In this document: positions 21,414 through 63,002 of the stretch, piece after piece
Layout of the letters: each line of letters begins with the position of its first letter
Position numbering within the stretch: the first letter of the stretch is position 1
Assembly (NCBI RefSeq): GCF_013488225.1
Contig: NZ_CP041241.1
Span: 1,178,001-1,242,000 of the forward strand
Direction of reading: 5' to 3'
DNA length: 64,000 nucleotides
From: Sinorhizobium mexicanum
GTDB taxonomy: Bacteria > Pseudomonadota > Alphaproteobacteria > Rhizobiales > Rhizobiaceae
Notes under the pieces: generated by a model
Told to the model about the DNA's origin: nothing
Database searches by the model: none
Seen by the model: the letters and a program-made list of their open reading frames with translations, nothing else
Translations under genes and position numbers: made by a program

Positions 21414-22196
21414 ATGCGGTCTCGGGTCGTAGCCGCGAACAGAATGACGGACCGTTAAGGCTGGTGGGAGAAATTCCGCCGCAAGAGCATCAAATTGCCG
21501 CGCGTAAAATTGCATGACGAATGGTTTGGTGCGTCTTTTTCTCGGCTATTCCGCGCGGTCGATGCTCTGGGCGCGCGTTCGCTGAGCGACACACAGCAGT
21601 TCGCCCCATCCTCCTTCGCCGAAAGGAGTGTGCTGGTTCTCGCCGCATCATCACTGCTTGTCGTCATCGAATTCGACAAATGGCGCTGCCGCCACGGTCG
21701 CGCCGGGGCGAGCCCCGATGACATCGTCCGCGCAGCCAAATGCAAACCTCAACAAGGACCTAGGGCCGGCGAAATGCGCTTCCAACAAGCGATGCGCGCG
21801 CCAACCGAGAGCGGAGATGTTACAGATGTAACAAGGATCAGGGCGCCCATGCGGTATGATTAATGCTACCGTTGAAGCATACTGACAATACCTCTGTGAC
21901 CGACGAGCAGGTCTTGCACCAGGACCTTGGCTTCATGCCGTCACACGCCAGTTAAAGACACTTCGTTAGTGGCTTATAAAGTTCGGTTAGTGCTCGGGGA
22001 GCTGAACGGCTCCGCGTAACTTTTGATGCAAGTCGGCCCACGTTTCGGCCGAAATGCATTCTGCTCCCGCGCCCTACCCGCTGATTTTTCGATGCTTAGA
22101 CCCTGACTATCGAACACGCATGGAAGTCCATGGCGCGGGGAGAAAGCTCGCGACCACTTGGAACAACGCGAAACAACACTTTTGGGGTGGGTCATC
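21414..22196. other. Intergenic region, 783 bp, with the first TGTAACA promoter element
   Basis: Two overlapping open frames (about 120 codons plus strand, 96 minus) occupy 21455-21863. Neither has a ribosome site, a recognisable motif or consistent codon use, so I do not call them. The only clear structure is the repeat-plus-TATGAT element at 21818-21860. The next 330 bp to the secreted-protein gene are lower in GC and could be a long leader. Confidence 0.4.
21818..21860 (+). promoter_or_regulatory. Bipartite promoter element, copy 1 (TGTTACA-GA-TGTAACA-N21-TATGAT)
   Basis: TGTTACA (21818-21824) and TGTAACA (21827-21833) are 2 bp apart. TATGAT follows after exactly 21 bp (21855-21860). The same arrangement occurs at 27726-27768. 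With TATGAT as a -10 box, the repeats would sit at about -35 to -50, as for an activator that touches polymerase. It faces the operon starting at 22197. Confidence 0.55.
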
Positions 22197-22589
22197 ATGC
22201 GAAACGTTCATCTAGCCGCAATAATCATAATACTTTCACCCTTCGACACCTTCGCGGCATCAGGCGACTACTCATGCAGCAACGGTGAGTTCGAAATCCA
22301 CTGCAACTCCTACAAGTGCGAGAGTGAAGAGGACTTCACGCCTGCTGGCGGCGTGGTCAATACCAGCACCAAGGATATGTCGGTGTGCGCATACAACGGG
22401 TGCTGGGAAGGGAAAGCCGACAGCATCATCTCTTCCCAAGGCCATATCATCGCCTACTCGGACCGGCTCCAGGGAAACAATCCCGGTCTTCATCCAACCT
22501 CGGCCGCCATTGTCATTAACCGTGAAACCTTGGGCGCAACGCTCAACGCATTCGGATTCCAATCACCCATGTCCTGTTCTCTCAAGTGA
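22197..22589 (+). CDS. Small secreted six-cysteine protein, unknown function
   Basis: A 130-residue protein with a signal peptide of about 21 residues (hydrophobic IIIILSPFDTFA) and a mature domain of about 109 residues. There are six Cys at 27, 36, 41, 64, 69 and 127, enough for three disulfides. I recognise no family. The frame opens at 22158, but the ATG at 22197 gives the signal peptide. It lies 22 bp before the GH19 enzyme gene and probably shares its mRNA. Possible roles are an inhibitor, a binding module or an immunity protein for the lytic enzyme; none is shown by sequence. Confidence 0.7.
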   Translation: MRNVHLAAIIIILSPFDTFAASGDYSCSNGEFEIHCNSYKCESEEDFTPAGGVVNTSTKDMSVCAYNGCWEGKADSIISSQGHIIAYSDRLQGNNPGLHPTSAAIVINRETLGATLNAFGFQSPMSCSLK

Positions 22590-22611
22590 GTCTTGAACAT
22601 AGGAGGCACGA

Positions 22612-23559
22612 ATGCCATTCGATCGCACATTCTTCTTCAATCAAGCTCGGCCGATGTTCGGTGGCCGGCTGACTCAAGGTCAAGTAGACGGGATGTCGGC
22701 CATACTTGACGAGTGGGAGCTGAGACTTCCGGACGGCGACCCCCGCTGGCTGGCTTATATGCTTGCCACGACATTCCATGAAACGGCCCGGCAGATGACA
22801 CCGGTGAAGGAGGCCTATTGGCTCTCCGAAGCCTGGCGACGGCGCAACCTTCGCTACTATCCTTACTACGGGCGTGGATATGTCCAGTTGACCTGGCGGG
22901 ATAACTATCGACGCGCCGGCGGCCATGTCGGCGACAATCTCGCCGACAACCCTGATTTGGCTCTGCGGCCGGACTATGCAGCCGCGATCATGTTTGTCGG
23001 CATGGGGGAAGGTTGGTTTCGAGGCGACAGCGGCGGCCGGCACAGCTTGGCGCGGTACTTCCGGCATAACGTAAACGACCCTGTCGGAGCGCGCGCCATC
23101 ATCAACGGGCACGAACCAGGGATTGCAGAAGCGATTGCGCGGTATCACGCACGGTTTCTTGGAGCCCTCCGGCTCGTTGTGCCCGTCAGAGGCGGGCTGG
23201 AGACTGCCTTTGGGCCAGAGGTCGTACAAGGGATCGGCACGCGCTCGGCGATTCCGATCGCCGCAGCCCATTACGACGACGGCTCGGAATTCATGGAGAC
23301 ACCCAGGACTCCGCTGTTCCCTGTCGAGACCATGGACAGCGACGCGGCGCAACCGGATCCGATATTGCAGATGACGACCGAGATCGTGACCGGGTTCGTG
23401 AGCAACAACAAGCTCGATCCCGCCAAGATATCCGAACTGATCGCGGACGTTTACTTCGCCCTTTCGAACTCCGACGACTTGTCTCGCCGCCGGCGGCTTG
23501 CCGAACCGGACAATGAGTATCTCGAAGGGAGCGAAGAGGCGGAACCGCGCGCTGCTTGA
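22612..23559 (+). CDS. GH19-family endolysin/chitinase-like enzyme
   Basis: A 315-residue protein whose first 190 residues match the GH19 lysozyme/chitinase fold. The catalytic Glu57 lies in TTFHETARQM, and the substrate cleft motif YYGRGYVQLTWRDNY spans residues 85-99. A helical C-terminal tail of about 120 residues has no clear homology. There is no signal peptide, as in phage endolysins, so release would need a holin-like pore, lysis or a secretion system. The start follows TAGGAGG. It is the second gene of the operon begun by the six-cysteine protein and ends 80 bp before the protease gene. Confidence 0.85.
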   Translation: MPFDRTFFFNQARPMFGGRLTQGQVDGMSAILDEWELRLPDGDPRWLAYMLATTFHETARQMTPVKEAYWLSEAWRRRNLRYYPYYGRGYVQLTWRDNYRRAGGHVGDNLADNPDLALRPDYAAAIMFVGMGEGWFRGDSGGRHSLARYFRHNVNDPVGARAIINGHEPGIAEAIARYHARFLGALRLVVPVRGGLETAFGPEVVQGIGTRSAIPIAAAHYDDGSEFMETPRTPLFPVETMDSDAAQPDPILQMTTEIVTGFVSNNKLDPAKISELIADVYFALSNSDDLSRRRRLAEPDNEYLEGSEEAEPRAA

Positions 23560-23570
23560 AATCATGGGAA

Positions 23571-23597
23571 GACGCCCGGCATTCCATGCCGGGCGTC
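23571..23597 (+). terminator. Strong stem-loop after the GH19 gene
   Basis: GACGCCCGGCAT and ATGCCGGGCGTC form a perfect 12-bp stem with a 3-nt loop, 11 bp after the stop. No U-run follows. It may partly end transcription or protect the upstream mRNA, and it argues against starting the next gene at 23564. Confidence 0.6.
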
Positions 23598-23638
23598 AGC
23601 CAATCAGAACCGATTCTGGCTTTTGGGCGCTTACCACC

Positions 23639-25663
23639 ATGCAGGTTTTTTCTCGCAAGCGGCAGGAGACGGTACGCAATGTTCCGCGCGATCCAACTGA
23701 TTTGCGCGATCAGATCTACACGCCGAACCTTCGCCCTCTCCTCCCGGCGCTGTCGCCGGCTGAACTCGTTCTTGATGCGCTGAAGAGCGCCGAGCCTCTG
23801 TACTGGCTGCCGAGAAATCAGGGCGTGGAGGGCACGTGCAGCGCCCAGGCGCTCGCCAGTCTCATCGATCTCCAGAGATTGCTCAATTGCCAGGATGCAG
23901 CTGCCAACGTGCCGGTCAGCGCGCGCATGCTTTACGAGATGGCTCGACTGCGCGAACCAGCTGACGGCGATGAGGGCCTTTCCCTTAGGGAAGCCATCAA
24001 AAGCTTTTACCACCATGGCGTTTGCTCCGACGATCTCTGGAAGTACGAACCAGGTGACCCCCGCGGTACGCTGAACGTCAGGCGTGCCAAGGCCGCACGC
24101 GAAGTGTCGCTGGGCGCCTACTATCGCTTGCGTCCGAGCCTCAACGACTATCACGCGGCCCTGAACGAAGTTGGACCCGTCCTTGTTTCCGCCGCGACGC
24201 ACACCGGCTGGAATATCGAAGCCGTGCGCGCGAATGAAGGCAAGATCATACAGTCGACCGGAGACGGAGGCGGCCATGCCTTTGTCGTCGTCGGCTACGA
24301 CAGCACGGGCTTTCTCGTGCTCAATTCGTGGGGGACGGAGTGGGGCAGCTATCTCGGCTGCAACGGATTGGGCCATTGGTCCTATCAGGACTGGGCCGAC
24401 AACATCTTCGATGGCTGGGTACTTCGGCTGGGCGTTTCCACCCCCGGCGCCTTCGACCTCTCAATCGGAGAACAGGGCATCTTTTTTGCTCGCAAGCCTG
24501 CCCGCGTTGCCGGTGTCCCGGGTTACGAGGTGCTGGGTCACCTCATCCACCTCGACGACGGGAAAGAAGTCAAAAGAGCGCCCTACCCATATTCCGCCAA
24601 GACATTCGACGAAACCGTCAGGTTCCTCAGTCGGGACGGCCGAGACAATGAACCCGTCGCGCCGGTCTGGGAGCCAAAGGACGGCCCGGCCAATCGTGGC
24701 TACCGCGGAATTCTGCTGCGGTTTGGCGGCAGTTTGCTGGGGCTCGGTCAGACCGCCCAGCAGATCGCACGAGAAAAGAATGCGATAAAGCAGCATGGCC
24801 TCTACCCGCTGACGATCGTTTGGTGCAACGACTTCGTCGACCAGACGACCGCGATCCTCTCCGGTCTTTTCACCGAAGCCACCAAGCAGATCGATGTTCG
24901 CAGCGATCGGCTGGACCACCTGATCGAGGACGTTGCACATGGGATCGGCAGGTCGTTCTGGCGGGACGTCGAGTCGGCCAGCAGAAAGTCAGCGGCAATA
25001 AAGGGCCCGGTCGATCATATTCTGGAGTGCCTGTTGCCGCTGGATCAATATTCCCTGCACATCATTTGCGACGGCGCTGGCGTCCTTCTCTTCCGCGACC
25101 TCATTGAGAGATGGAGACGTGACCGCGTCGCGTCGTTCCGTCTGCTCGCCAGGCGTCTCGCCAGTCTCGACTTCATCACGCCGACGATTGACGCAAAGGA
25201 CTTTGCTGACGGCTTCACGCAACTGATATCGGCGCTACCGCCAACGGGCCAAACCAATGCGCCGGCTGTTGCGCTCCACGTCCCTGACTCGGCTACGAAT
25301 GGAAGGCTGACCGTCGGCATGTACTCGAAGTCGATACTCGACCTCATAGAGAAAGCTTTCTCCGATCGCTCGAGCGACCCTCCGCCGGTCTTCATCGGCA
25401 AGTCGCTTCGCAAGACTCGGATCGACGAGATCTGGAAAGATCACCCCGCCTTCGCGAAAATCCAGATCAACGAAATCTCGATCCCGCCTCGCCTCGGAGA
25501 ATTGCTCCAACAGGAAGATCTTCAGCTGAAGACCGACCTCATCAGCCAGATACTCAACCGCATCGCGCCAGTGTCGGATGTTCCCGACCGGCAAAGAGGG
25601 AGGACGGGTTATGACGTCAGGCAGCAAAATATCTTTGGAAGAACTGAACAGGAAGCTTGCTGA
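23639..25663 (+). CDS. Papain-like cysteine protease fused to degenerate alpha/beta-hydrolase
   Basis: A 674-residue two-domain protein with no signal peptide. Domain one (residues 50-265) is a C1A-type protease: oxyanion Gln61 and nucleophile Cys67 in NQGVEGTCSAQA, catalytic His213 in GGHAFVVVGY, and Asn229 in LNSWGTEWG. Domain two (about 355-610) follows the pattern of an alpha/beta-hydrolase (RGILLRFGG, YPLTIVWCND), but where GHSAG is expected the sequence is CDGAG at 477-481. Gly thus replaces the nucleophilic Ser and the domain may only bind ligand. The start at 23639 avoids the hairpin upstream; 23564 is an alternative. It overlaps the SGNH-caspase gene by 53 bp, suggesting coupled translation. 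Confidence 0.8.
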   Translation: MQVFSRKRQETVRNVPRDPTDLRDQIYTPNLRPLLPALSPAELVLDALKSAEPLYWLPRNQGVEGTCSAQALASLIDLQRLLNCQDAAANVPVSARMLYEMARLREPADGDEGLSLREAIKSFYHHGVCSDDLWKYEPGDPRGTLNVRRAKAAREVSLGAYYRLRPSLNDYHAALNEVGPVLVSAATHTGWNIEAVRANEGKIIQSTGDGGGHAFVVVGYDSTGFLVLNSWGTEWGSYLGCNGLGHWSYQDWADNIFDGWVLRLGVSTPGAFDLSIGEQGIFFARKPARVAGVPGYEVLGHLIHLDDGKEVKRAPYPYSAKTFDETVRFLSRDGRDNEPVAPVWEPKDGPANRGYRGILLRFGGSLLGLGQTAQQIAREKNAIKQHGLYPLTIVWCNDFVDQTTAILSGLFTEATKQIDVRSDRLDHLIEDVAHGIGRSFWRDVESASRKSAAIKGPVDHILECLLPLDQYSLHIICDGAGVLLFRDLIERWRRDRVASFRLLARRLASLDFITPTIDAKDFADGFTQLISALPPTGQTNAPAVALHVPDSATNGRLTVGMYSKSILDLIEKAFSDRSSDPPPVFIGKSLRKTRIDEIWKDHPAFAKIQINEISIPPRLGELLQQEDLQLKTDLISQILNRIAPVSDVPDRQRGRTGYDVRQQNIFGRTEQEAC

Positions 25664-27530
25664 TCCCAGTCTGAGCGAGCAGGAGCTTCAGAAATACTTT
25701 CTGGTCGACGACGAGAAGTCGGGACCCTTCAACCCGGTGCTCGAGATCAATCGCGAGTTGGTCACCGTGCCCGCGACACCGGAAGGGCGGGCCCGCAGCG
25801 CCGCACTTCTGAACAGCGCGAACTTCATCTCGCGCCTTCGCCGCCAGGCCGCTTTCCACAATCGCATCGGCAGCGGAGACTACAAGGGGCCGATCATCGT
25901 CTCTGAGGGCGACAGCTGGTTTCAGTATCCATTCCGCCTGATGGACGTCATCGACCAGTTGATGAAGCACTACGCAATCTTCAGCCTCGACGCCGCCGGC
26001 GACACGTTGTCGAACATGCTGAGACAAGCCGAATACATGGATGCGATCGAAAACACGGGAGCATCCATCTTCCTGTTCAGCGGCGGCGGCAACGATGTCG
26101 TGGCGGGCGGCAACCTCGCCGCTCATCTCTTCGATTTCGATCCTGCCTTGCCGCCCGAGGCGCATCTCAGGCCCTCGTTCGAGGCGCTGCTGGACGATGC
26201 AATCGGCATGTACGGCAAGCTCGTTCGGCAGGTCGCCAAGGCCTTTCCGAAAGTGCAGATCCTTTGTCATGGTTACGATTACACGATCCCGGCAAAGGGA
26301 AATTGGCTTGGCAAACCGATGGAATCGCGAGGGATCAAGGATCCGGATTTCCAGCGGGCGATTGCCCGCGTCATGATCGATCGCTTCAATGAACGCCTGT
26401 CGCTGTTGCAGAGCTCATCGGCGCGGCTCAACTACATCAATTGCCGCAACATAGTGGGCGCAACGGAGTGGTTCGACGAGTTGCACCCGACAGACAACGG
26501 CTATGCCAAGGTGGCACAAAAATTTGCGGCGCTGATCGAACAGTTTGCCTCAAGGGCACGGGACGTCGAGCATAAAGCGAGCAAGGCGCGCGCCGGAAGA
26601 GCCAAGGCGCCGTCCGCCGCGACAGCGGCCCTCGAAACACCTTCCCGCCCGGCTGCCGCAAGTTCGCGAGCAACCGACGGGCCGTCAGGGATGTCGCTCC
26701 ACATCGGCCTGAATATGGTCAGCGCCGCTCACTATGCGGGCTGGGACGGACCGCTGCGCGCCTGTGAATTCGACGCCAGCGATATGCAGGAAATCGCGGC
26801 CGCTCTCGGATACGACACCAAGTCGCTCCTCACCAAGGAGGCGACACGCCAGAACGTCATCAGCGAGGTCAAGAGAGCAGCGAGGGATCTCAAGGAGGGT
26901 GATATCTTCCTGATCAGCTACTCGGGTCATGGCGGGCAGCTCCCGGATTTCAACAACGATGAAGACGATTCCACCGACGAAACCTGGTGTCTCTACGACG
27001 GCCAGCTTGTCGATGACGAGCTCTATGGCCTCTGGTCCGAATTCAGGGCGGGCGTCCGCGTGCTGGTCGTTTCGGACAGTTGCCACAGCGGCACCGTCGT
27101 GCGCGCCGGCGTCGCTGACGGACATGCACTGACGAACGGTCACGCAGTTGCCGCGGGCATACCGCGCGCGATGCCCATCGACGTCGCCACGCGGACGTTC
27201 CGCCAGAACCGCGACTTCTATGCGCGCCTCGGCGCCTCCATCTCGCTTGGCGAAGGACGCAATCTGACACGCGAGATCACGTCTCCGATCTCGTGCAGCG
27301 TTCGCCTGATTTCCGGATGCCAGGATAACCAGGTCTCGCTCGACGGCATCGGCAATGGTGCCTTTACCGCCGCGTTGATCTCCACCTGGAACCATGGTCG
27401 CTTCACCCGCGACTATGCCGCCTTCCACCGGGCCATCATGATGAAATTGCCACCCGACCAGACCCCCAACCACTGGCAGGTCGGACCGAGGAACCCTATT
27501 TACGATGCGCAGACGCCCTTTGCGATCTGA
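25611..27530 (+). CDS. SGNH/GDSL hydrolase fused to caspase-family (C14) protease
   Basis: A 639-residue fusion without signal peptide. Residues 90-310 form an SGNH hydrolase: Ser102 in SEGDSW, block III Asn161 in GGGNDV, and Asp289/His292 in DELHPTDNGY. An Ala/Ser/Pro-rich linker spans about 315-360. Residues 362-639 are a metacaspase-type domain with catalytic His440 (SYSGHGGQ), Cys491 (SDSCHSGT) and an acidic loop between them (NDEDDSTDE), as in Ca-responsive type I metacaspases. The start at 25611 follows GGGAGGACGG inside the end of the protease gene. Esterase and caspase activities are predicted from intact residues; targets are unknown. Confidence 0.88.
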   Translation: MTSGSKISLEELNRKLADPSLSEQELQKYFLVDDEKSGPFNPVLEINRELVTVPATPEGRARSAALLNSANFISRLRRQAAFHNRIGSGDYKGPIIVSEGDSWFQYPFRLMDVIDQLMKHYAIFSLDAAGDTLSNMLRQAEYMDAIENTGASIFLFSGGGNDVVAGGNLAAHLFDFDPALPPEAHLRPSFEALLDDAIGMYGKLVRQVAKAFPKVQILCHGYDYTIPAKGNWLGKPMESRGIKDPDFQRAIARVMIDRFNERLSLLQSSSARLNYINCRNIVGATEWFDELHPTDNGYAKVAQKFAALIEQFASRARDVEHKASKARAGRAKAPSAATAALETPSRPAAASSRATDGPSGMSLHIGLNMVSAAHYAGWDGPLRACEFDASDMQEIAAALGYDTKSLLTKEATRQNVISEVKRAARDLKEGDIFLISYSGHGGQLPDFNNDEDDSTDETWCLYDGQLVDDELYGLWSEFRAGVRVLVVSDSCHSGTVVRAGVADGHALTNGHAVAAGIPRAMPIDVATRTFRQNRDFYARLGASISLGEGRNLTREITSPISCSVRLISGCQDNQVSLDGIGNGAFTAALISTWNHGRFTRDYAAFHRAIMMKLPPDQTPNHWQVGPRNPIYDAQTPFAI

Positions 27531-27582
27531 TCATTTTGAGCAGGTCGCTGAGAGGACCGAGGGCGAAGATGGAACTCGGCCG

Positions 27583-27606
27583 GACGGCTCCCATGGGGGA
27601 GCCGTC
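27583..27606 (+). terminator. Stem-loop downstream of the SGNH-caspase gene
   Basis: GACGGCTCCC and GGGAGCCGTC form a perfect 10-bp stem with an ATGG loop, 53 bp after the stop. No clear U-run follows. The region between here and 27725 shows no gene. Confidence 0.55.
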
Positions 27607-27725
27607 CCTCACCATCAGATTACGGGAAGAGATTACTATCGGCTCGCCGACGCGGTTTGCTGTTTGCAAGTCGCATCACGGACAATAAGGACATCTGGAC
27701 TCAAACCAGCCGAAGAAATTTATAG

Positions 27726-27768
27726 TGTAACAAATGTAACAGGTCCGGCGATCAGCCCGCGCTATCAT
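27726..27768 (+). promoter_or_regulatory. Bipartite promoter element, copy 2 (TGTAACA-AA-TGTAACA-N21-TATCAT)
   Basis: Direct repeats TGTAACA at 27726-27732 and 27735-27741 are followed after 21 bp by TATCAT (27763-27768). It matches copy 1 at 14 of 16 positions in the repeat block with identical spacing. It lies about 120 bp upstream of the 38-residue peptide gene and would drive that gene and the membrane protein behind it. Confidence 0.6.
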
Positions 27769-27890
27769 CTAATATCTACAAGCCGCTTGCGTATTTGAAG
27801 GCGATTATTCTTTCCCAAGGCGGCTTTGTATCGAACCTCAACCATCTCACGCCTGAAAGGTGCCGCGAGGTCCTGTTCGTGGAGCTGGCC

Positions 27891-28007
27891 ATGCGAAAGC
27901 AATTCCTCCTGACCCTACTTTTGGCGACAACCATAGCATGCGGGCTGGTTCCTGCCGCGTCGTGGGACGCGAATGCGCAATGTAATCCGCAAATCAATCG
28001 ATGCTGA
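27891..28007 (+). CDS. Predicted 38-residue exported peptide
   Basis: A very short gene: start ATG at 27891 behind GTGGAG, stop at 28005. The product is almost all signal peptide (RKQFLLTLLLATTIACGLVP, then ASWDANA), leaving a mature peptide near QCNPQINRC, whose two Cys could close a loop. A 70-codon frame from 27795 would hide the signal sequence and is less likely. It lies 12 bp before the membrane-protein gene. It could be an exported signal, a lipoprotein-like entry peptide or a small toxin; I cannot tell. Confidence 0.55.
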   Translation: MRKQFLLTLLLATTIACGLVPAASWDANAQCNPQINRC

Positions 28008-28019
28008 GGGGTGCACGCC

Positions 28020-29837
28020 ATGGGCGCGTTGGTTGACTGGTTGCGTGACCCGACAAGCCTGACATTCCTGTTCGGGGCCTTGACGATCGCCTTTCATTCA
28101 AGAAAGCGGGTCGAGTCCCTGATAACACCGCCCAGAGGCGAGGAATTCGACTTCGTACGTCTGCTTTCGCTGCCGGCAATCGTCGGCAAGAGCGTTTTCC
28201 GCAAGGCCTACCTCATCTACACGGTGTCACTGGAAATTCTCTATTTCTTCATGTGTGCATCACAGCCGATCATACGGGTGCTGGCCGAGGGAAAACTCGA
28301 CGGTTTTGAAGGACCGGCATGGCCGCTTGGTGCGGCCCTGATCGTCATAGGCGTTATCCCGTCCACTCCACTGTTCGCTCAGATCGAACTTGCCCTGCGC
28401 AGCATGGCCCATAGTGTATCCAACATCCCCGATGAATTTTTCGAGCGTGTCACCAAGCTCTCCCAGAGCGAGATCGAGGCGTATGTAGGAAGGGATCCCC
28501 GCTATGAGCCGGACCTGCAGCGGTTCCGCAAGATCCAAAGCCTCGCTCTCTATGCTGGCTGCTCGCGGGAGGAGGCTGACAAAGTCGCAAGGCGGACGGT
28601 GGGCGCGGAACTGTTTGCCCGATGGACGATCAACGGCCAGGACATTTGGTCGGCGGGCGAATTCGACAAATACCGCGATGTCCTGGATGTTCTCAGGCCC
28701 AGGTCCGAAAACCTGAAGCAGGAGGTAAAGGAACTTGTTTCAAAGACCTCATCTTCCCCCGTCGTGAGATACATAATTGAAAGAAGCAACACGTCGCCGG
28801 AGGCTCCGATCAAGGACGGCGATTCACAAAGGATTCAATCTATTTCCGCCGAAATTCTCGCTAATCCAGGGTCAATTTTCGCGTCGCTGGAGCAAGAGGA
28901 TATTCGCTCCTACCTGACGCTTGCGGACCTGTGGCGCGCGAAAGCAGCCGAAATCGGCATATCCAACCGCAGATTGAGTGCCCTTTTTGCGATCATTGCT
29001 CTCAATGACACAAGAGTGATGAAGGCATACGTGCACCCGGACCGAGGCGCTCGGCCCCTGGACGTGGTGCTTAGAGAACTGCTGTTGCTCGTGCGGAAAA
29101 GCCGCAGCAAGCCTCGGCCATGGAATAACTCAGCCTTGTTGTCGACCTTTACTGCATTTCTCGGCTGCGTGATCCTGCTAACCGCATACCACAAAATACA
29201 TGCTGTTTTCTTGCCCGGCCCTTCGACAGTGAGTCCGTTCGAAGAGGCTTTCTTCACCTCGGCATCACTCTTTACAAGCTTCCTCGCGGCCGGGATCTGC
29301 GCTCTTGTCATACGAACCCACAAGATCGACCAGGGTGCGTGGACAGCCTTCTCGGATATCCGGAATTTCCCGCTTTCCCAGTATGGCGGTATCGTCTTCG
29401 CCGCAATGACTTGTGCCTTCGCCACAGCCATCATTTGGGTAATTTTGTATCAGTGGAGATATGACAGCGTGACTGCGCTTTTGCAGATCGGCCAAGGAGG
29501 AATTCTTGTGCTGACGGGGTATTACGCAATCTGCTCTCTTATTCCGGCAATGTATGGCGTCGGCATCTGCGTAATAACGGATTGTGTTATCGAGAACGAA
29601 GAAAGATCCGAAGGCCTCAGGCTTCCCCTTTATTGTTTCGCGGCAATATTCATCGTGATTTATATTCTGCTTGAGACGAGCATCCTGATCGAACCTGCCT
29701 ATCGGGCGACATTTCTGGTGAGCCTGGTATCCAAATCACTGTTCTCGTTGATCGCGCTCGTGACCTTCGCTTTGAGCTTGCAGTCAAATGGCCAGGCCAG
29801 AAACCAGGCCGCTTTGGCCGGTGTACGGCCCGTGTAG
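28020..29837 (+). CDS. Polytopic membrane protein, unknown family
   Basis: A 605-residue protein with about three N-terminal hydrophobic segments (near 12-26, 62-82 and 100-120), a soluble helical middle of about 250 residues, and some six helices in the last 230 residues (beginning LSTFTAFLGCVILL). The middle contains charged helices and no known catalytic motif. I recognise no family. The ATG at 28020 is preferred over a GTG at 28011, given GAGGGG upstream. It is co-directional with the exported peptide and the proteases before it. A channel or sensor role would fit the cluster, but that is inference only. Confidence 0.75.
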   Translation: MGALVDWLRDPTSLTFLFGALTIAFHSRKRVESLITPPRGEEFDFVRLLSLPAIVGKSVFRKAYLIYTVSLEILYFFMCASQPIIRVLAEGKLDGFEGPAWPLGAALIVIGVIPSTPLFAQIELALRSMAHSVSNIPDEFFERVTKLSQSEIEAYVGRDPRYEPDLQRFRKIQSLALYAGCSREEADKVARRTVGAELFARWTINGQDIWSAGEFDKYRDVLDVLRPRSENLKQEVKELVSKTSSSPVVRYIIERSNTSPEAPIKDGDSQRIQSISAEILANPGSIFASLEQEDIRSYLTLADLWRAKAAEIGISNRRLSALFAIIALNDTRVMKAYVHPDRGARPLDVVLRELLLLVRKSRSKPRPWNNSALLSTFTAFLGCVILLTAYHKIHAVFLPGPSTVSPFEEAFFTSASLFTSFLAAGICALVIRTHKIDQGAWTAFSDIRNFPLSQYGGIVFAAMTCAFATAIIWVILYQWRYDSVTALLQIGQGGILVLTGYYAICSLIPAMYGVGICVITDCVIENEERSEGLRLPLYCFAAIFIVIYILLETSILIEPAYRATFLVSLVSKSLFSLIALVTFALSLQSNGQARNQAALAGVRPV

Positions 29838-55460: not shown

Positions 55461-58400
55461 CTATGGAGTGACACCACGTGACCTAGCGATCGTTCGCTGC
55501 TGGATCTTGTCGCTGCTCTGCAATCGGACGGTCTGCTGCAAGAGCTTCAGCCGCTCCTGCAGGGCCCCGAGCGCGCGGCGCTGCGTCGGCGGCACGCGAT
55601 TGATCACGTCCTTCTCGCCGCGCAGAATGGCGTTGCGGCCGAACCGTTCGTCGAGCGCCCGGCTGACCGCGGCGAACTCACGCCGAATCGTGGAATCGAG
55701 CGAACCGGCGGTAGCGTCGAGCTTGCAGCCCTTCTTCTTCATCTCGGCCGAGAGCCGCCGCAAGGCCTCTTCCGCGGCTTGCGATAGTCCCGGAATAGCA
55801 ACCGCCATCCGACGCCGCTCTTCCTTAACGCCCTGGCGTTCCGCCTCAAACGCGGTCACCCAGGATGCGCCGAGCGAGCGCAGATGGGCCGCCGCCTCTG
55901 GCACGGCCTTGAGCGCGTCCTTCCTCTCCCGGCCGGAGGCGAGCATCCGATCCATCAGGCGATCCGAACCACGCATCGCACCATAGGCGGTAGGGTCGTT
56001 GGTCACGGCCGCCGCGATCCGATCGGCCGCAAAGCCCTTGACGATGAGTTCCTCGATCTTGTCGACAGCACCGGCCGGGTCGCGCCAGATGCGCTTCGCG
56101 GTCTCGGCCAGCGCCGCGCGATGATGGCGATAGTGCTGAACAGTGAGCCCCCGTGTGCGCGCTTCCTCGTCCACCGATGTTTTGAACTCTGTCACGGCGG
56201 CAAGCATCGGCAACAGCACGGCCGTCGTCTCCTTACCGGACTCGACGCTCGCACCAGCGACGATCTTCGACCGGTTCTCCTTCTCGGCAAGATGCTGCTC
56301 CTCGGCAAAGCGCCGTACCGCTTCGAACAGCCGTCTCAACCTCCCGCGCTGTTCGCTCGTCAGATCGTCCGGCATGCGTTCGACCATGTTGCGTTCGGCG
56401 ACCGCATCCGCCTTTGAGGTGAAGGCGCTCCAGCCGAAACGGGCTGTCAGCGCGTCGCTCATTGCCTTCACCTCTTGCACGACCGAGCGGTCCTCGACGG
56501 CAAGCGTAAAAGCAGCCCGGTAACCATCGTCTCCACCCTGTTTGCGCACCGCCTCGATCTCAACGAGACGCGCCATGGCGCGCGGTGAGAGCGCTGGGAT
56601 CGACAGAGACATATGCATGCGGCGCGTCTGCTCGCGCTCACGGAAGCGTTCGGCGTTTCGACGGAACTCGGTCGCATGGGCACGGGCCACGGGGAGCAAC
56701 TCCTGCAGGGCAGCCTTGGCGACGCTGCGCGCGTCGCGTTGAGCACGACCGTCGACGACGAGAGCAGACCCCCGCAGACGGCCGAGCCGCACCGGCGTAT
56801 TGGCGAGATCGTCGGCAAGCTTGCGGGGCTCGGTAGCGGTATCCGAAGCAAGCGCGTTCAAGGCGGTAAGCGCTGCCTCCGGATCGCGATAGACCTTTTC
56901 CAAAAGCGGCCGGAGGGTCGCTTCCCGCTCGGCCCATGCCGGAGACGAAAGCTGCGCGAGGCGCGCATCCTCATCGACGCTCCGGGCGAATTCAGTCGCG
57001 GACCGGATCAGAGAGTGCCTACCGACCAGGATTCCTTCGGAGAGAGATTCCGTCCGTTCCTCACTGTACGAAACGCGCCGTTCCTGCTCGATCGCGAAGC
57101 CGAGCGCTATGCTCGCCCGTTCCCAGAGCTTCGCCAGTTGCTCCCACTTTTCCCAAATCGAGGCCCACCGCTGCGGCAAGCCCTCCTCTATTCCCGCCGC
57201 GGCGAACGACAGATGATCGAGCCCGCGCCTGCGTGCGAAATCGCTGGCATACGCCTGGTGACTTGCCTCATTCTCGAAATCGAGCGTGGTGGTCTTGGCG
57301 CCGGAACGCGACAGTCGCTCGACGAGCTGTTTGAACAGCTCCGGCCGATGGCTCTCGCGTTCGATCCGCTCCTGGCGAGCCTCGGCGGTTTCGACCCGCC
57401 TGGCGGTCCAGACGTTACGATCGACCTTGCGTTCCTCCGTTCGCTTCTCGCCAGTGGCCTCATCGACGACGGTGACCTCGACCTTGACCTTCTCGAAACC
57501 GTCCTTGCGCAGCGCAACCGTATCACCTCGCGAGACCCCAGCCTCCTTGAGGGCCTTCGGCAGGCTCACGCCCCAGAGACGGTGAACGGCTCCGTCGTCT
57601 GTCCTAAGGTCGGCATAGGGGCTTTCGTGCGCAACATCATCATCGGGTCGGAATTTGGCTTCCCCGGTTTCGACGAGCTCGCCGGTGACACCCGCGGCAT
57701 GGCCGACGCGCGGTTGCCGCCTCCGTTCCGGACTCACCTCGAAATCCTCCTTCGCCGCATAAAGATCGGCGCGGTCGAGATGCCGGGTCATCGATACATA
57801 GGTCAGATGGTGGTCCATCATACCAGTGGCGAGGACGAAGGTCCGGTCCACCGTGGCACCCTGCGACTTGTGGATCGTCGCAGCATAGCCATGGTCGACG
57901 TTGCGATAGCTGTCCTCGCTGATGACGACATCTCGGCCGTTGTCGAAACGCACGGAAAGCAGTGTGTCACCCCGCTTGTCGCCGGTCGAGACGACCGTAC
58001 CGAGCATGCCGTTCTTGACATATTGAGGGCCGAGACCCCGCGCCCGCGGCTCGACGAAGCGGGCGTTTTCCAGAAAGATGATGCGGTCGCCGACGGCAAA
58101 CTCCCGCGCACCGCGCGCCGTCCGAAAGGTGCGGCCGTCGCTGAGCGCGCCCTCGTCAGTCATGACCTCGCGGAGCGCCTCATTCAGCCGTTTGACATCA
58201 TTATTGGTATGGGCGAGCACGAGCAACTCGTCACCGCGAAAGCGACGCGCATTCTCGCCCTGGGCGGATTTCTGAAGGAGATCATGTCTCGCGCCCGCCC
58301 AGTCGGAAACGATGCGGCCGATGACCTCCTCGCGCGTTTCCGCCTCGACGATACGGCCGTGGCGCGCATAGGCGTCGAGGCCTTTCTCGATCTCGCCACG

Positions 58401-60071
58401 GGCAAAGAAGCGCGAGGCATCGCGCGCCCATTGCTCGCGCTGCCGTCGCACCCCGGCAAGTTCGGCAAAGCCGACACGCTCGGAAATCGCGCGGAATGCC
58501 GCGCCGGCCTGGATCGGCTGGAGCTGCATCGGATCGCCAACGAGAACGACTTTCGCTCCCACCTGCTCCGCAGTCTTCAGGACGCGCGCCATCTGCTGCG
58601 AGGACACCATGCCGGCCTCGTCGACAACCAGCACGTCGCCGCGACTAAGCAATTCGCGCCCACTGGCCCACGCAAGTTCCCAGGACGCCAGCGTCCGCGA
58701 TCTGATACCGGAACTGTCCTCCAGTCCCTCCGCTGCCTTTCCGGTAAGCGTCGCTCCGGTCACACGACGGTCTTCGCTTTCCCAGGCAACCCGCGCGGCG
58801 GCAAGCAGCGTCGACTTGCCTGCGCCCGCGAGACCGACGACGGCCGCAATGCCGCTGTCGCCGGTGACATGACCGACGGCATCGACCTGTTCCGCATCGA
58901 GTGTCAAGTGCGCTTTCGGATCGGCTGTTTCCACGCTCTTGACGGCAGCAGCGACATTCCGTGAAGAAACGCCAAAGCCTTTTCTCCTCGAGAGGGCCTC
59001 AGCCGACTGCGCCATGTCGTATTCGATGCGCAGGATCTCCCGCGTGGTGAAGACCGCAGGCTCCGAAACATTGCCGGTCTGGGGATCGACCTGCTGCGGC
59101 TTCAACGTCACTAACTCATTTGCGGCCATCAGGCGCGCGCGGATATTGGTAAAATCGGTCGGATCGTCGACATAGCGATGCAGCGCCCTGGCGATATCCT
59201 TCTCGTCGAAGGTGGAGCGCTCGTTGCCCAGCTGCTTCAGCAAAAGCTTCGGTTCCGCAAGAAGCCGATCGGCCATATCCTGCCGGCGGGCGAGATCGGC
59301 CGGCGCGAAGTACATCTCAATGCCCTTGCGGGAGAGCGCGGCCCTTTGCGGTCCGAGATGTCTTTTCGCGATCCCGCCGAGGCCCTGTTCGACATAGGAT
59401 CGTCCGTCGAGGCGGATCTCATGGCCGGCAAGCGCAAAATGCCGGTTCGCCGTTTCTGCCCAGGCGATCTTCCACGCCTTCATCGTTTCCTTGTCGCCCG
59501 CCCAAAGCTTGTAGACGATCTTGCCACTCTGCCGGTCGGGCGTGACAACGCGCAGCGGCTCGCCGTCCTCGCCCAGGACAGGGACCTTCTTCGGCCCGAA
59601 GCCCTCCCTCGCAAGCGGTCGCAGCGTCGTCATCAGGTGGACATGCGGATTGCCGTCCTTGTCGTGATAGACCCAATCGACGACCATCCCCTTGGAGGTG
59701 AAATTGTCGCGGACGAACTCTCGGACGAGGGCGATGTTCTCCGCTCGGGTCAGCTCCTCCGGCAAGGCGATGACCAACTCGCGGGCAAGCTGCGCATCCA
59801 CCCGCTTCTCGAAGGCGTCGACCGCATTCCAGAGCGCCTCGCTGGCCTTGGCGACGGCTTGCCCGCCAATCGCCGTCCTCAGCCAGGTCGGGGTCTGGTC
59901 TGGCAGGGCCAGTTCCTCATGCACCAGATCGGGCGTCCCGCCGCGATAGCTGAACGTCGTTCCGACCTGTTCATCCATCATTCGAGCGCGATGGCAATAG
60001 GCGGCGGCGGAGACGATGCTGCGTCCCGCTCCCCTGCTGATCACCTGCGCTCTGACGAACATGATAGCCAC
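55461..60071 (-). CDS. traA: Ti-type conjugative relaxase-helicase TraA
   Basis: A 1536-residue bifunctional protein that nicks oriT and unwinds the plasmid strand for transfer. Residues 1-250 form a MobA/MobL (MOBQ) relaxase: a catalytic Tyr near residue 25 (SAAAYCHRA) and the metal His pair 143/145 (NPHVHLMTT). Residues 390-800 are a RecD/AAA helicase, with Walker A GLAGAGKS at 413-420, VLVVDEAGMVSS and VVLVGDPMQLQP, ending with TIHKSQGATVD. The long helical C-terminus has no catalytic motif. The first codon is a GTG at 60071 (MAIMFVRAQV); an ATG is four codons in. It is divergent from traC across the transfer origin. Confidence 0.95.
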   Translation of the reverse strand: MAIMFVRAQVISRGAGRSIVSAAAYCHRARMMDEQVGTTFSYRGGTPDLVHEELALPDQTPTWLRTAIGGQAVAKASEALWNAVDAFEKRVDAQLARELVIALPEELTRAENIALVREFVRDNFTSKGMVVDWVYHDKDGNPHVHLMTTLRPLAREGFGPKKVPVLGEDGEPLRVVTPDRQSGKIVYKLWAGDKETMKAWKIAWAETANRHFALAGHEIRLDGRSYVEQGLGGIAKRHLGPQRAALSRKGIEMYFAPADLARRQDMADRLLAEPKLLLKQLGNERSTFDEKDIARALHRYVDDPTDFTNIRARLMAANELVTLKPQQVDPQTGNVSEPAVFTTREILRIEYDMAQSAEALSRRKGFGVSSRNVAAAVKSVETADPKAHLTLDAEQVDAVGHVTGDSGIAAVVGLAGAGKSTLLAAARVAWESEDRRVTGATLTGKAAEGLEDSSGIRSRTLASWELAWASGRELLSRGDVLVVDEAGMVSSQQMARVLKTAEQVGAKVVLVGDPMQLQPIQAGAAFRAISERVGFAELAGVRRQREQWARDASRFFARGEIEKGLDAYARHGRIVEAETREEVIGRIVSDWAGARHDLLQKSAQGENARRFRGDELLVLAHTNNDVKRLNEALREVMTDEGALSDGRTFRTARGAREFAVGDRIIFLENARFVEPRARGLGPQYVKNGMLGTVVSTGDKRGDTLLSVRFDNGRDVVISEDSYRNVDHGYAATIHKSQGATVDRTFVLATGMMDHHLTYVSMTRHLDRADLYAAKEDFEVSPERRRQPRVGHAAGVTGELVETGEAKFRPDDDVAHESPYADLRTDDGAVHRLWGVSLPKALKEAGVSRGDTVALRKDGFEKVKVEVTVVDEATGEKRTEERKVDRNVWTARRVETAEARQERIERESHRPELFKQLVERLSRSGAKTTTLDFENEASHQAYASDFARRRGLDHLSFAAAGIEEGLPQRWASIWEKWEQLAKLWERASIALGFAIEQERRVSYSEERTESLSEGILVGRHSLIRSATEFARSVDEDARLAQLSSPAWAEREATLRPLLEKVYRDPEAALTALNALASDTATEPRKLADDLANTPVRLGRLRGSALVVDGRAQRDARSVAKAALQELLPVARAHATEFRRNAERFREREQTRRMHMSLSIPALSPRAMARLVEIEAVRKQGGDDGYRAAFTLAVEDRSVVQEVKAMSDALTARFGWSAFTSKADAVAERNMVERMPDDLTSEQRGRLRRLFEAVRRFAEEQHLAEKENRSKIVAGASVESGKETTAVLLPMLAAVTEFKTSVDEEARTRGLTVQHYRHHRAALAETAKRIWRDPAGAVDKIEELIVKGFAADRIAAAVTNDPTAYGAMRGSDRLMDRMLASGRERKDALKAVPEAAAHLRSLGASWVTAFEAERQGVKEERRRMAVAIPGLSQAAEEALRRLSAEMKKKGCKLDATAGSLDSTIRREFAAVSRALDERFGRNAILRGEKDVINRVPPTQRRALGALQERLKLLQQTVRLQSSDKIQQRTIARSRGVTP

Positions 60072-60090
60072 GACCTTCTCCAGACCTTTC

Positions 60091-60120
60091 GCACACGTCG
60101 CGTCAGCGCCGAAAATGTGC
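60091..60120. other. Candidate origin of transfer (oriT)
   Basis: The traA-traC gap holds GCACA (60091-60095) and TGTGC (60116-60120) flanking CGTCGCGTCAGCGCCG. That block resembles, on the opposite strand, the short oriT palindrome region of Ti-type plasmids as I recall it. Location between divergent traA and traC is the standard rhizobial one. The nick site cannot be fixed by eye. Confidence 0.5.
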
Positions 60121-60227
60121 CGCTCAAACCGATCGGTCTACCAAGGCCGATGCCGCTTCTCCGGAAGACGGGCAAGGGAAAAAACTCCGGCAGCGACGTT
60201 TTCGGGATGATGCAAATAGCCTATTTT

Positions 60228-60249
60228 ACTATCTCAAACAAGATAGTAT
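60228..60249. promoter_or_regulatory. Inverted repeat in the traC promoter
   Basis: TACTATCT and AGATAGTA are exact 8-bp arms with a 6-nt centre in an AT-rich stretch 44 bp before traC. It is a good candidate operator for a repressor of the transfer genes or part of the oriT region. Confidence 0.55.
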
Positions 60250-60292
60250 AGTCGGCATTGCGTAGATTGCTCCAACAAAGAAGGACTCTGGA

Positions 60293-60580
60293 ATGGCCTC
60301 GAAATCATCTATCTCCGACATCGAAGCACAGATCGAGAAGCTGCACGAACGCAGACGAAAGCTGATAGTAAAATCCGCCGAGCGTTTTGCCCGGGCCGCA
60401 ACGAAGTCGGGTCTTGCGGAGATGGAAATCGCCGACGAGGAGGTCGATCGCATCTTCGCAGAGATCGCCGGGCGATTTTGCAAAGGCGAGAAGAAGGGGA
60501 TTGCTGGCGCAGCTGCTGCGCCGCGTCGCCTGCCAGGTGGCGCGACTGGAACGCCGGCGGAGGCTTCTCATGACGGCTGA
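60293..60580 (+). CDS. traC: Conjugal transfer protein TraC
   Basis: A 95-residue, highly charged helical protein matching the start of rhizobial TraC (ISDIEAQIEKLHERRRKL, AERFARAATKSGLAE). TraC is thought to help the relaxosome at oriT. The ATG follows AAGGA. It overlaps traD by 11 bp and heads traC-traD-traG. Confidence 0.9.
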   Translation: MASKSSISDIEAQIEKLHERRRKLIVKSAERFARAATKSGLAEMEIADEEVDRIFAEIAGRFCKGEKKGIAGAAAAPRRLPGGATGTPAEASHDG

Positions 60581-60809
60581 GCGCAAGCGCGAGGCGCGGG
60601 AGAAATTTCTGCTCGGCGGCATCGTCGTCAGGGCGGGCCTGTCTGAGGCCGACCGGGCGTTTCTGCTCGGCGGCCTCATCGAACTGGCGAGGATCGCGCC
60701 GGGCTCGTCGGAACATCTACGGCTTCGCGATATCGGTGCGGAGGCATTTAAGATCGCGCCGGCCGATGTGGCATCACTGCCCGTCAGGGAGACGGCGAAG
60801 TGGCCCTGA
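60570..60809 (+). CDS. traD: Conjugal transfer protein TraD
   Basis: A 79-residue protein of the rhizobial TraD type (KREAREKFLLGGIVVRAGL, LLGGLIELAR). It is the small partner between TraC and TraG, not the E. coli F TraD coupling protein. The start overlaps the end of traC and the end overlaps the GTG start of traG, so all three are translationally coupled. Confidence 0.9.
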   Translation: MTAERKREAREKFLLGGIVVRAGLSEADRAFLLGGLIELARIAPGSSEHLRLRDIGAEAFKIAPADVASLPVRETAKWP

Positions 60810-62713
60810 AGTCAAAATCGCATCAAAACCTGTTGCTTGGACTAGTGCCAATCGCCGTCACCGCTGTTGCCGTTTATGTTGTCGAGTGGCGCTGGCCGGG
60901 ATTGGCCACCGGCCTCTCCGGGAAGACGGCACACTGGTTTCTCCGGGCGTCACCCGTGCCGGCGTTTTTGCTTGGACCGCTTGCCGGATTGCTGACCGTA
61001 CAGATGCTGCCGTTGCACCGGCGAAGGTCGGTCGCAATGGCGAGCCTTGCCTGCTTCCTCTCCGTCGCCGGCTTCTACGCACTGCGCGAATTTCGCCGAC
61101 TCGCTCCGTCCGTGGAGAGCGGCGCGGTGACATGGGATCGGGCGCTTTCCTATCTCGATATGATGGTCGTCCTCGGCGCATTCGCCGGCTTCGTGGCCGT
61201 GGCAGTGGCTGCCCGCATTTCCACCGTCGTGTCAGATCCAGTGAAGCGCGCCAAGCGCGGAACCTTTGGGGACGCAGATTGGCTGCCCATGTCGGCGGCA
61301 GGAAAACTGTTTCCGCCCGACGGCGAGATCGTCGTCGGCGAGCGTTACCAGGTCGACAAGGAAATCGTCCATGAGCTCGCGTTTGATCCGAACGATCGGG
61401 CCACATGGGGGCAAGGCGGCAAAGCCCCGTTGCTCACCTACAAGCAGGACTTCGATTCCACGCATATGCTCTTCTTTGCCGGGTCGGGCGGATACAAGAC
61501 CACGAGCAATGTCGTGCCGACCGCGCTCCGTTACACCGGCCCGCTCATCTGCCTCGATCCCTCCACGGAGGTCGCGCCAATGGTGGTCGAACATCGCACC
61601 CGCATCCTCGGTCGCGAGGTGATGGTGCTCGATCCGACAAAGCCGATCATGGGTTTCAATGTGCTCGACGGGATCGGGACGTCGCGGCAGAAGGAGGAGG
61701 ACATAGTCGGCATCGCGCATATGCTGCTGTCGGAAAGTGTACGTTTCGAATCCTCGACCGGGTCGTATTTCCTGAACCAGGCGCACAATCTTCTAACCGG
61801 CCTACTCGCCCATGTGATGCTGTCGCCGGAATATGAGGGACGACGAAACCTGCGCAATCTCCGGCAGATCGTTTCCGAGCCGGAGCCCTCGGTGCTGGCG
61901 ATGCTGCGTGACATTCAGGAGCACTCCGCTTCGGCTTTCATCCGGGAGACGCTTGGCGTCTTCACGAACATGACTGAGCAGACCTTCAGCGGCGTCTATT
62001 CGACGGCATCGAAGGATACGCAGTGGCTGTCCCTCGACAATTATGCCGCCCTTGTCTGCGGCAACGCCTTTCGGTCGAGCGACCTAGTCAGCGGCGAGAA
62101 GGACGTCTTCTTAAACATCCCGGCATCGATCCTTCGCTCCTATCCGGGCATCGGCCGCGTGATCATCGGCTCGCTTATCAATGCTATGGTTCAGGCCGAT
62201 GGCGGCTTCAAGCGCCGGGCACTCTTCATGCTCGATGAGGCCGATCTCCTTGGCTATATGCGCGTGCTGGAGGAGGCGCGCGACCGAGGCAGAAAGTACG
62301 GCATCAGCATGATGCTGATGTACCAGTCGGTCGGACAGCTGGAGCGGCACTTCGGGAAGGACGGCGCAACGTCGTGGATCGACGGATGCGCCTTCGCTAG
62401 CTATGCCGCGATCAAGGCGCTCGACACGGCACGCAACGTCTCGGCGCAGTGTGGCGACATGACGGTCGAGGTGAAGGGCAGCTCGCGCAGCGTCGGCTGG
62501 GACACAAAGAGCGGAGCGTCGCGCAAATCGGAGAGCGTCAACTTCCAGCGCCGGCCGCTGATCATGCCGCACGAGATCACACAGTCCATGCGCAAGGACG
62601 AGCAGGTCATCATCGTGCAGGGCCATAGCCCGATCCGTTGCGGTCGCGCGATCTACTTCAGGCGAAAGGACATGAACGAAGCGGCAAAGGCCAATCGTTT
62701 CGTCAAGATTTGA
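60800..62713 (+). CDS. traG: Type IV coupling protein TraG
   Basis: A 637-residue VirD4/TraG-type ATPase that brings the relaxosome to the mating-pair channel. It starts with a GTG at 60800. Three or four N-terminal helices lie in residues 10-140. Walker A is AGSGGYKTT (227-235) and Walker B is LFMLDEADLLGYM. Other coupling-protein motifs include TQWLSLDNYAALVCG and YGISMMLMYQSVGQL. The length is normal. It is the last gene of the traCDG operon; the next gene on the right is convergent. Confidence 0.94.
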   Translation: MALKSKSHQNLLLGLVPIAVTAVAVYVVEWRWPGLATGLSGKTAHWFLRASPVPAFLLGPLAGLLTVQMLPLHRRRSVAMASLACFLSVAGFYALREFRRLAPSVESGAVTWDRALSYLDMMVVLGAFAGFVAVAVAARISTVVSDPVKRAKRGTFGDADWLPMSAAGKLFPPDGEIVVGERYQVDKEIVHELAFDPNDRATWGQGGKAPLLTYKQDFDSTHMLFFAGSGGYKTTSNVVPTALRYTGPLICLDPSTEVAPMVVEHRTRILGREVMVLDPTKPIMGFNVLDGIGTSRQKEEDIVGIAHMLLSESVRFESSTGSYFLNQAHNLLTGLLAHVMLSPEYEGRRNLRNLRQIVSEPEPSVLAMLRDIQEHSASAFIRETLGVFTNMTEQTFSGVYSTASKDTQWLSLDNYAALVCGNAFRSSDLVSGEKDVFLNIPASILRSYPGIGRVIIGSLINAMVQADGGFKRRALFMLDEADLLGYMRVLEEARDRGRKYGISMMLMYQSVGQLERHFGKDGATSWIDGCAFASYAAIKALDTARNVSAQCGDMTVEVKGSSRSVGWDTKSGASRKSESVNFQRRPLIMPHEITQSMRKDEQVIIVQGHSPIRCGRAIYFRRKDMNEAAKANRFVKI

Positions 62714-62924
62714 CGTTCCGTGTTGCGTACCGCCCAATCCCAGAACGGTAGCCCCCTACGATACTGTTCGGGCGGATCGTCGGAGGCGGTGGGGGCGTGA
62801 GCCGGTCGAGAAGGATCGTGTAGCCGATTGTGAAGGCAACAAGACCGATCGTCAGGCCGAACGCCCATCAGGGAATGCCGTTGGCCGCATCCCGGTTCGC
62901 GAAGACGACGACGCCCGCCGGCAT
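62703..62924 (-). pseudogene. Decayed small membrane-protein ORF next to virB11
   Basis: On the minus strand an ATG at 62924 opens PAGVVVFANRDAANGIP, then a TGA (62868-62870), and the same frame continues WAFGLTIGLVAFTIGYTILLDRL and PPPPPTIRPNS to a stop at 62703. With the stop read as Trp it would be a 73-residue protein with one transmembrane helix. It follows virB11 on the same strand, where an accessory transfer gene would be expected. I do not recognise it. The rest of 62714-63002 holds nothing else. Confidence 0.4.
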
Positions 62925-63002
62925 GATCGAAGCGTGATGCCCTCGGCAATCAGCCCTGAAAGATCGATGGCTACCCTATTGCTGCACCAAAGGAAACTGC
63001 AT

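Follow-up and report, generated by a model that had tools for sequence, protein, structure and literature searches.

Described systems and the six-gene block

A single caspase-amidase-GDSL protein was noted in 2012 among prokaryotic metacaspase fusions (Asplund-Samuelsson et al. 2012, PMC3501461), and in the conflict systems of Kaur et al. 2020 (PMC7159879) caspases adjoin alpha/beta-hydrolases (the VMAP pairs) and lysozyme- and papain-like effectors are found; System 3 of the latter account is mostly alphaproteobacterial, and transmembrane (TM) and periplasmic binding domains are noted for System 4 (EACC1-caspase). In the CARD-NLR-like system LypABC, known from gene transfer agent (GTA) release in Caulobacter, peptidases drive host lysis in an alphaproteobacterium, and the system is toxic if overproduced and is repressed (PMC13236601). 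These statements and the comparisons below refer to the portions of the three papers that were covered. Here we compare with them a block of six same-strand open reading frames (ORFs; 22197-29837) in a window, meaning the whole analysed stretch, of 64,000 nucleotides from Sinorhizobium mexicanum (NZ_CP041241.1, positions 1,178,001 to 1,242,000 of the forward strand), which forms part of a 1.93 Mb replicon; the genome, of 7.1 Mb, is 99.85% complete. The block joins an exported micropeptide and a nine-helix membrane protein (TM9) to a papain-type peptidase, an SGNH-caspase fusion and a cell wall hydrolase. We read it tentatively as a two-module cell-destruction system, with an envelope sensor and cytoplasmic executioners serving programmed lysis or conflict, a serious candidate that falls a little short of probable.

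Inspection of the ORFs places the six genes in two transcription units. Unit 1 encodes a six-cysteine protein (Cys6), a GH19 wall hydrolase, a C1 papain-type peptidase fused to an alpha/beta-hydrolase-like domain (C1-hydrolase) and an SGNH hydrolase fused to a C14 caspase (SGNH-caspase), with the genes for the last two overlapping; unit 2 consists of a 38-codon peptide gene and TM9, separated by a 12 bp gap. An earlier note on this DNA had described six same-strand genes with these domains, and the description is borne out by the ORFs, by Pfam and PHROG matches and by Kyte-Doolittle analysis, which was used for all hydrophobic segments and topologies given below. The note had also reported knowing of no described system with this set; none was found among the titles, abstracts and passages of the literature searched, and neither the gene set nor the micropeptide family was described there, subscription papers and preprints lying outside the scope of the search.

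The portions of Asplund-Samuelsson et al. 2012 covered (PMC3501461) contain no SGNH-caspase family with a C1 partner, a fused M15 domain or a peptide or membrane partner, and they leave unnamed the genes of the Rhizobium operon. The C1-hydrolase gene preceding the SGNH-caspase gene would recall the VMAP-type layout, with the hydrolase recognised here by its elbow motif only and not by Pfam; unlike the hydrolases of Kaur et al. 2020 it is part of a C1 fusion protein and its nucleophile is missing, and a micropeptide-TM9-SBP cassette is absent from the covered portions of their account (PMC7159879). Pfam searches, which covered the six genes only, matched neither the MoxR ATPase and vWA core of the VMAP systems nor STAND, NucA, EACC1 or EAD. 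The NucA and trypsin core of System 3 is likewise missing from the six genes by Pfam, and trypsin-EEP proteins are encoded in other SGNH loci. As to System 4, the caspase scores 25.3 bits against NF047832, for which the cut-off is 140, and the position 5′ of its gene, where System 4 has a single-TM EACC1 gene, is taken by the C1-hydrolase gene, whose product has no TM segment. Among the PADLOC anti-phage models the block gave only a partial match, of the caspase to PDLC02987 at 27 bits. LypABC differs in its use of trypsin-like peptidases and an NLR-like ATPase; a caspase, an SGNH protein, a wall enzyme and an exported peptide are all absent from the account covered (PMC13236601).

A micropeptide family paired with TM9

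The micropeptide gene (27891..28007, forward strand, as are all features below) encodes a predicted mature product, QCNPQINRC, following ANA, and its sequence suggests cleavage after this AxA-like site. The 38-residue exported peptide of the earlier note is thus present; that it belongs to a family tied to TM9 had gone unnoticed. TM9 (28020..29837) shows nine Kyte-Doolittle segments, two of which overlap by two residues, and one likely helix near residue 20 was missed; the layout would be three helices at the N-terminus and about six at the C-terminus, with a soluble domain of about 240 amino acids (aa) between them. TM9 matched no family in Pfam, NCBIfam, PHROG or PADLOC, and no holin was found by these matches. 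TM9 is the partner family of both the micropeptide and SBP_bac_3: its relatives often carry a C-terminal SBP_bac_3 fusion or have an SBP_bac_3 protein encoded next to them.

Upstream of TM9 relatives lie small predicted-exported ORFs, mostly with the ending C[ND]P..Q.C or a similar one. For a hold-out test the peptide was defined as an ORF of 22-80 aa with a hydrophobic core and a C-x2-8-C tail, at most 600 bp upstream of the gene, a criterion set down in the test script itself, before the output was obtained. Ten of 13 hold-out TM9 loci passed it, compared with 15 of 1539 other genes (Fisher 4e-17, computed with 15/1540); here and below L plus a number labels a locus and G plus a number a genome, and L224 and L226 come from one genome, and L221, L223, L224 and L226 from one genus. 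Among all TM9 genes examined, 33 of 42 passed, a count that includes places present twice, and in L052, L056, L089, L105 and L117 the peptide is present and was missed through gene-start calls. Scanning 2.52 Mb in all six frames for exported C[ND]P peptides yielded 30 matches (four places counted twice), 29 of them directly 5′ of TM9 and one, in L093, 5′ of C1-SGNH-caspase-M15. When 5.8 billion proteins were searched with a micropeptide profile, 16 clusters of 30-71 aa were returned, 11 at E ≤1e-3 and the rest up to 3, several being query members; 15 have CNP tails and one CNNP, and they are labelled hypothetical protein, with one cut-off label reading 'outer membrane lipoprotein-sorting pro'.

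Nine Sinorhizobium copies of the micropeptide carry six synonymous changes and no amino-acid change in the nine mature codons, while 17 of the 29 signal codons change amino acid. The amino acids of the nine-residue product are therefore conserved while its DNA changes. Short, predicted to be exported, under purifying selection and adjoining a membrane partner, the micropeptide fits a peptide-receptor signalling layout. The cassette of micropeptide and TM9 appears to be undescribed and is the most novel part of the block, and it offers a testable peptide-membrane pairing in Gram-negative bacteria.

Further genes accompany members of the cassette. In L226 (9039-12024) and L056 (6191-9100), from two genera, a gene of old-yellow-enzyme type (in L056 by eye) and a RoxA-like cytochrome gene stand beside it. 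In L074 (3773-13172, G024) a second kind of C1-hydrolase, with the Ser nucleophile retained, lies about 4 kb from a peptide and a TM9-SBP fusion; this locus is from the same genus, and the stretch examined contains no SGNH-caspase. In L204 (8068-11357, G289) a TM9 relative has as neighbours a radical SAM/SPASM gene and an ORF of 73 aa whose end reads GNWGNWANGWGNW; this ORF looks like the precursor of a modified peptide and would be another peptide beside the TM9 family.

Putative executioner genes, gene order and a shared promoter-like element

The first gene of unit 1, Cys6 (22197..22589), encodes a predicted exported, predicted all-beta protein with a hydrophobic N-terminus and six Cys in its mature part. 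A search for relatives found seven proteins, the named ones all from Sinorhizobium/Ensifer, and its AF2 model has a predicted local distance difference test score (pLDDT) of 73 and a predicted template-modelling score (pTM) of 0.65. The GH19 gene (22612..23559) had been taken for an endolysin-like enzyme without signal peptide, in agreement with its matches to Pfam GH19 (7e-7) and to the endolysin family phrog_181 (1.3e-33) and with the lack of an N-terminal hydrophobic segment. The first 200 aa of the protein have matches in 305 of 50,697 phage records, always at less than 60% identity and never over more than 80% of the query; the best phage matches to the catalytic part include Sinorhizobium and Rhizobium phages. 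Phage holin-endolysin cassettes share with this block a phage-type endolysin without signal peptide, and differ from it in that TM9 is far bigger than a holin and the proteases and SGNH are extra. The C-terminal tail of the GH19 protein (aa 251-290) resembles the N-terminal region of MucR (Pfam 20.8 bits, under the cut-off of 25.4) and is perhaps an oligomerisation piece. Between this gene and the next, a perfect hairpin with a 12-bp stem (23571..23597, -24.9 kcal/mol, z -5.9) is possibly a repeat element or an RNA-stability element.

The C1-hydrolase gene (23639..25663; Pfam C1 4e-7) retains the catalytic residues Q61, C67, H213 and N229 of the peptidase. Its second domain, a degenerate hydrolase in the earlier note, has Gly at the nucleophile position (G479), and the assignment rests on the GxGxG/GHSAG elbow across homologs, no Pfam hydrolase family being matched there. 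The nucleophile is gone in 37 of 37 C1 proteins longer than 550 aa from caspase loci (35 Gly, 2 Ala) and retained as Ser in three of four such proteins outside caspase loci; the non-catalytic domain is probably a binding or scaffold domain. The overlapping SGNH-caspase gene (25611..27530) has the SGNH residues S102, G130, N161 and D289/H292 and the caspase residues H440 and C491 in place. Its SGNH part matches GDSL at 4.5e-7, slightly under Pfam's curated cut-off, and its caspase part matches C14 at 6e-20 and is related to PDB 3bij (E 1.5e-85). No hydrophobic N-terminal segment was found in the executioner enzymes.

A scan for the SGNH domain in one genome per species confirmed 278 relatives, and the counts given here cover the best 80 of these 278, each examined as a stretch of about 21 kb or less; 43 of the 80 encode an SGNH-caspase. 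A C1-hydrolase gene lies directly 5′ of it by rule in 35 of the 43 (L083 among them with a 261-aa fragment) and is also present in L081, L110 and L115, hidden by gene-start calls; of the five remaining loci without a called C1, L107 and L120 are truncated where their contigs stop. The pair is spread across Alphaproteobacteria, usually with a wall-cutting enzyme, and in 26 of the 43 loci the caspase is followed by a fused Peptidase_M15 domain. On S. meliloti M162 pSymA a TIGR02594 protein occupies the GH19 position ahead of C1 (74% identity) and SGNH-caspase (84%), and in R. ruizarguesonis a chitosanase and an L,D-transpeptidase-type gene stand behind SGNH-caspase, with a SIR2 gene near. Across GH19, fused M15, TIGR02594, chitosanase and L,D-transpeptidase-type genes, the wall enzyme is thus replaced by unrelated folds, and this exchange of lytic partners around a C1-SGNH-caspase core that stays points to a lysis function. 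In R. leguminosarum 248, SGNH-caspase is surrounded by C1, trypsin, EEP and a YEATS-associated gene. Other SGNH architectures are SGNH with Amidase_3 and M15, SGNH with trypsin and EEP domains, and caspase-SGNH-Lcp, which a GH19 gene adjoins in one of two Fibrisoma loci.

The gene order was compared in 33 genomes of the genus, own genome included. A full-length SGNH-caspase is present in eight of them, and all eight keep the six-gene order at the same site, the conservation that the earlier note had named as support, with Cys6 broken and GH19 intact in G004. Sinorhizobium terangae USDA 4894 also carries the block. In G003, Cys6, GH19 and a short C1 fragment are followed at once by the downstream flank (fragment and flank by eye), a structure that indicates a deletion remnant in which loss hit both halves. 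Of the six genes G019 has only those for the peptide and TM9; they lie elsewhere in the genome, close to genes for a glucosaminidase that has a peptidoglycan (PG)-binding domain and for a PGAP1-like lipase.

Both units are preceded by the same bipartite element. An operator-like inverted repeat, TGTWAC-N4-GTAACA, occurs as TGTTACAGATGTAACA (21818..21833) and, in a second copy, as TGTAACAAATGTAACA (27726..27741), each 18 nt ahead of CGSTATSAT; these -10-like elements are CGGTATGAT (21852..21860, of extended type) in front of unit 1 and CGCTATCAT (27760..27768) in front of unit 2, a geometry that would suit an operator covering the -35 region of a promoter of extended -10 type. The two units are separated by a strong, terminator-like hairpin without a T run (27582..27607; positions 27568-27625 fold at -29.2 kcal/mol). 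Of the earlier claim of one promoter signal, the same element before each half therefore stands, and the single promoter gives way to two units with a promoter-like element each. The element can be aligned at front and back sites in eight of eight carrier genomes, with variants; the strict composite operator/-10 pattern matches five of eight front and six of eight back sites, and the remaining sites depart from it at one base or a few. Perfect copies of the repeat occur at two sites in the own genome. The composite pattern, tuned on these sites, had no match in 200 Markov-simulated windows, and in 2.92 Mb of examined DNA it was found solely before Cys6 or before peptide-TM9 cassettes; since it was derived from these sites, only the absence of further matches is informative. 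Cassettes unlinked to a caspase are among those it precedes (loci L056, L064, L065 and L203; genomes G019, G003, G013 and G293).

Proposed function and competing explanations

In the cell-destruction system that we propose, we infer the ligand role, the direction of the signal, the trigger, the lysis or killing and its benefit. The peptide and TM9, in relatives also a periplasmic SBP_bac_3 protein, would form the envelope sensor, in which the exported two-Cys micropeptide would act in the periplasm as a ligand, gate or small subunit of TM9/SBP, and the large soluble domain of TM9 would relay a change of state to the cytoplasm. The C1 peptidase with its non-catalytic hydrolase, the SGNH esterase-caspase and the wall hydrolase would be cytoplasmic, being without signal peptides. 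Upon the trigger, proteolysis would begin and membrane lipid and peptidoglycan would be cut, giving controlled lysis as an abortive conflict response or programmed lysis. Cys6, exported beside GH19, may guard the periplasm from leaked enzyme, and a single regulator would switch both modules through TGTWAC-N4-GTAACA. By analogy with the caspase and alpha/beta-hydrolase conflict systems (PMC7159879) and the caspase-amidase-GDSL protein of 2012 (PMC3501461), as far as these sources were covered, a conflict or programmed-lysis role appears most likely, and its benefit might be phage defence, release for the good of kin or predation. More broadly, Alphaproteobacteria may possess a hitherto unrecognised family of micropeptides with a disulfide (C[ND]P..Q.C, some 9-14 residues in the mature form) and, for these, a dedicated nine-helix SBP-coupled receptor, wired in several lineages to caspase, papain, SGNH and wall hydrolase as a peptide-gated death switch of sensor-to-caspase layout; we regard this as possible, on the doubtful side. 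Should the two modules prove to be coupled in function, a synthetic nonapeptide could give a means of studying, in a rhizobium, how a bacterial caspase is activated.

Several observations weigh against the proposed system. No TM9 was found in 34 of the 43 SGNH-caspase loci, and the executioner genes of S. meliloti pSymA and of two Rhizobium plasmid loci are accompanied by neither TM9 nor peptide. Conversely, most TM9-family loci outside the SGNH set are without an executioner gene by seed profiles, so that the job of TM9 may be unrelated to lysis. L230, L232 and L233 are without a peptide by the criterion above and L204 is without one of C[ND]P type. Neither a fused M15 nor a GH19/amidase/lysozyme-seed neighbour was found in 13 of the 43 SGNH-caspase loci, among them L096 and L104, where a PG-binding protein is encoded downstream. 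The repeat with one mismatch allowed is not enriched in the own genome (5 matches, with one additional place, compared with 13 for the control pattern in reverse). A fold search with Cys6 returned nothing informative, and the idea of Cys6 as a guard is weakened by G004.

A competing explanation is that two separate systems share only a regulator and a genomic site, with peptide, TM9 and SBP sensing or importing redox state, a metal or a peptide, unlinked to lysis. Each module does occur alone in many genomes, C1 and SGNH-caspase being found in numerous lineages that lack GH19, Cys6 or TM9 beside them, so of the single system claimed in the earlier note the linked order and shared element hold and the unity does not, and the operator-like element also precedes caspase-free cassettes. 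Against this, as examined, TM9 is present in nine of 43 SGNH-caspase loci versus none of 37 other SGNH loci, although L136, on the same contig as G019, was scored without TM9 with one just outside the stretch, about 12 kb from SGNH. Five of the nine lie outside Sinorhizobium/Ensifer: L082 (Rhizobium), L089 (Leisingera), and L099, L105 and L117 (Paracoccus, in two arrangements, L099/L105 being near-identical). About 0.004 were expected, given a genome size taken as 5 Mb and the presence of TM9 in about 2% of the genomes sampled, and the linkage has therefore re-arisen or been kept repeatedly; it is not obligatory. A peptide without TM9 also adjoins C1-SGNH-caspase in L093. We consider two unconnected systems unlikely, though still with some real weight. 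TM9 cassettes beside a lysozyme and a Tle1 lipase occur in three genomes of two genera.

Distinctly unlikely, and somewhat more so, is antibacterial attack, in which effectors would be freed by lysis of a few cells or by an unrecognised route and Cys6 would be periplasmic immunity against GH19. The enzymes include several folds directed at the walls, lipids and proteins of bacteria; related loci also encode An_peroxidase, RoxA/Lcp-like oxygenases and EEP enzymes, and Cys6 adjoins GH19, both being retained in the G003 remnant. On the other side, the enzymes are without a hydrophobic N-terminal segment, Pfam matches of the six genes include no VgrG/PAAR-type family, and G004 keeps GH19 intact with Cys6 broken. 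Contact-dependent attack, suggested earlier, finds no support by way of a type VI secretion system: VipB (PF05943) had no match in the own genome, the control search being one that does find E. coli, and such delivery is unlikely. A domesticated phage or GTA lysis module, with GH19 as a captured endolysin and TM9 in the holin's place for particle release, is very improbable, for although the GH19 matches to phages noted above and prophage-like endolysin genes in two genus genomes (context by eye) would suit it, no phage structural genes were noticed beside the block (ORF list by eye; five proteins scanned with PHROGs), the SGNH family has only four weak relatives (23-26% identity) in viral contigs, and TM9 matches no PHROG.

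Some neighbouring genes deserve mention. Haem peroxidases, Lcp-type oxygenases and trypsin-EEP proteins are present in other SGNH loci, and in L122, L127, L129, L131, L138 and L139 a recurrent gene after SGNH resembles a divergent caspase ('YVSGHG' and similar; by eye), which Pfam misses in L138, the one member tested. Beside the S. meliloti pSymA copy, L239 (1017-3488) has a SUMF1-annotated gene, its N-terminus weakly caspase-like, and a small neighbour, with DUF5131 and TcmP genes further on, likely a conflict island. The block itself is flanked by GH25/phasin genes on one side and an Atu4866-type gene on the other, and the last part of the window (55461-63998) contains a long ORF resembling MobA/TraA and ORFs of conjugation type, recognised by eye.

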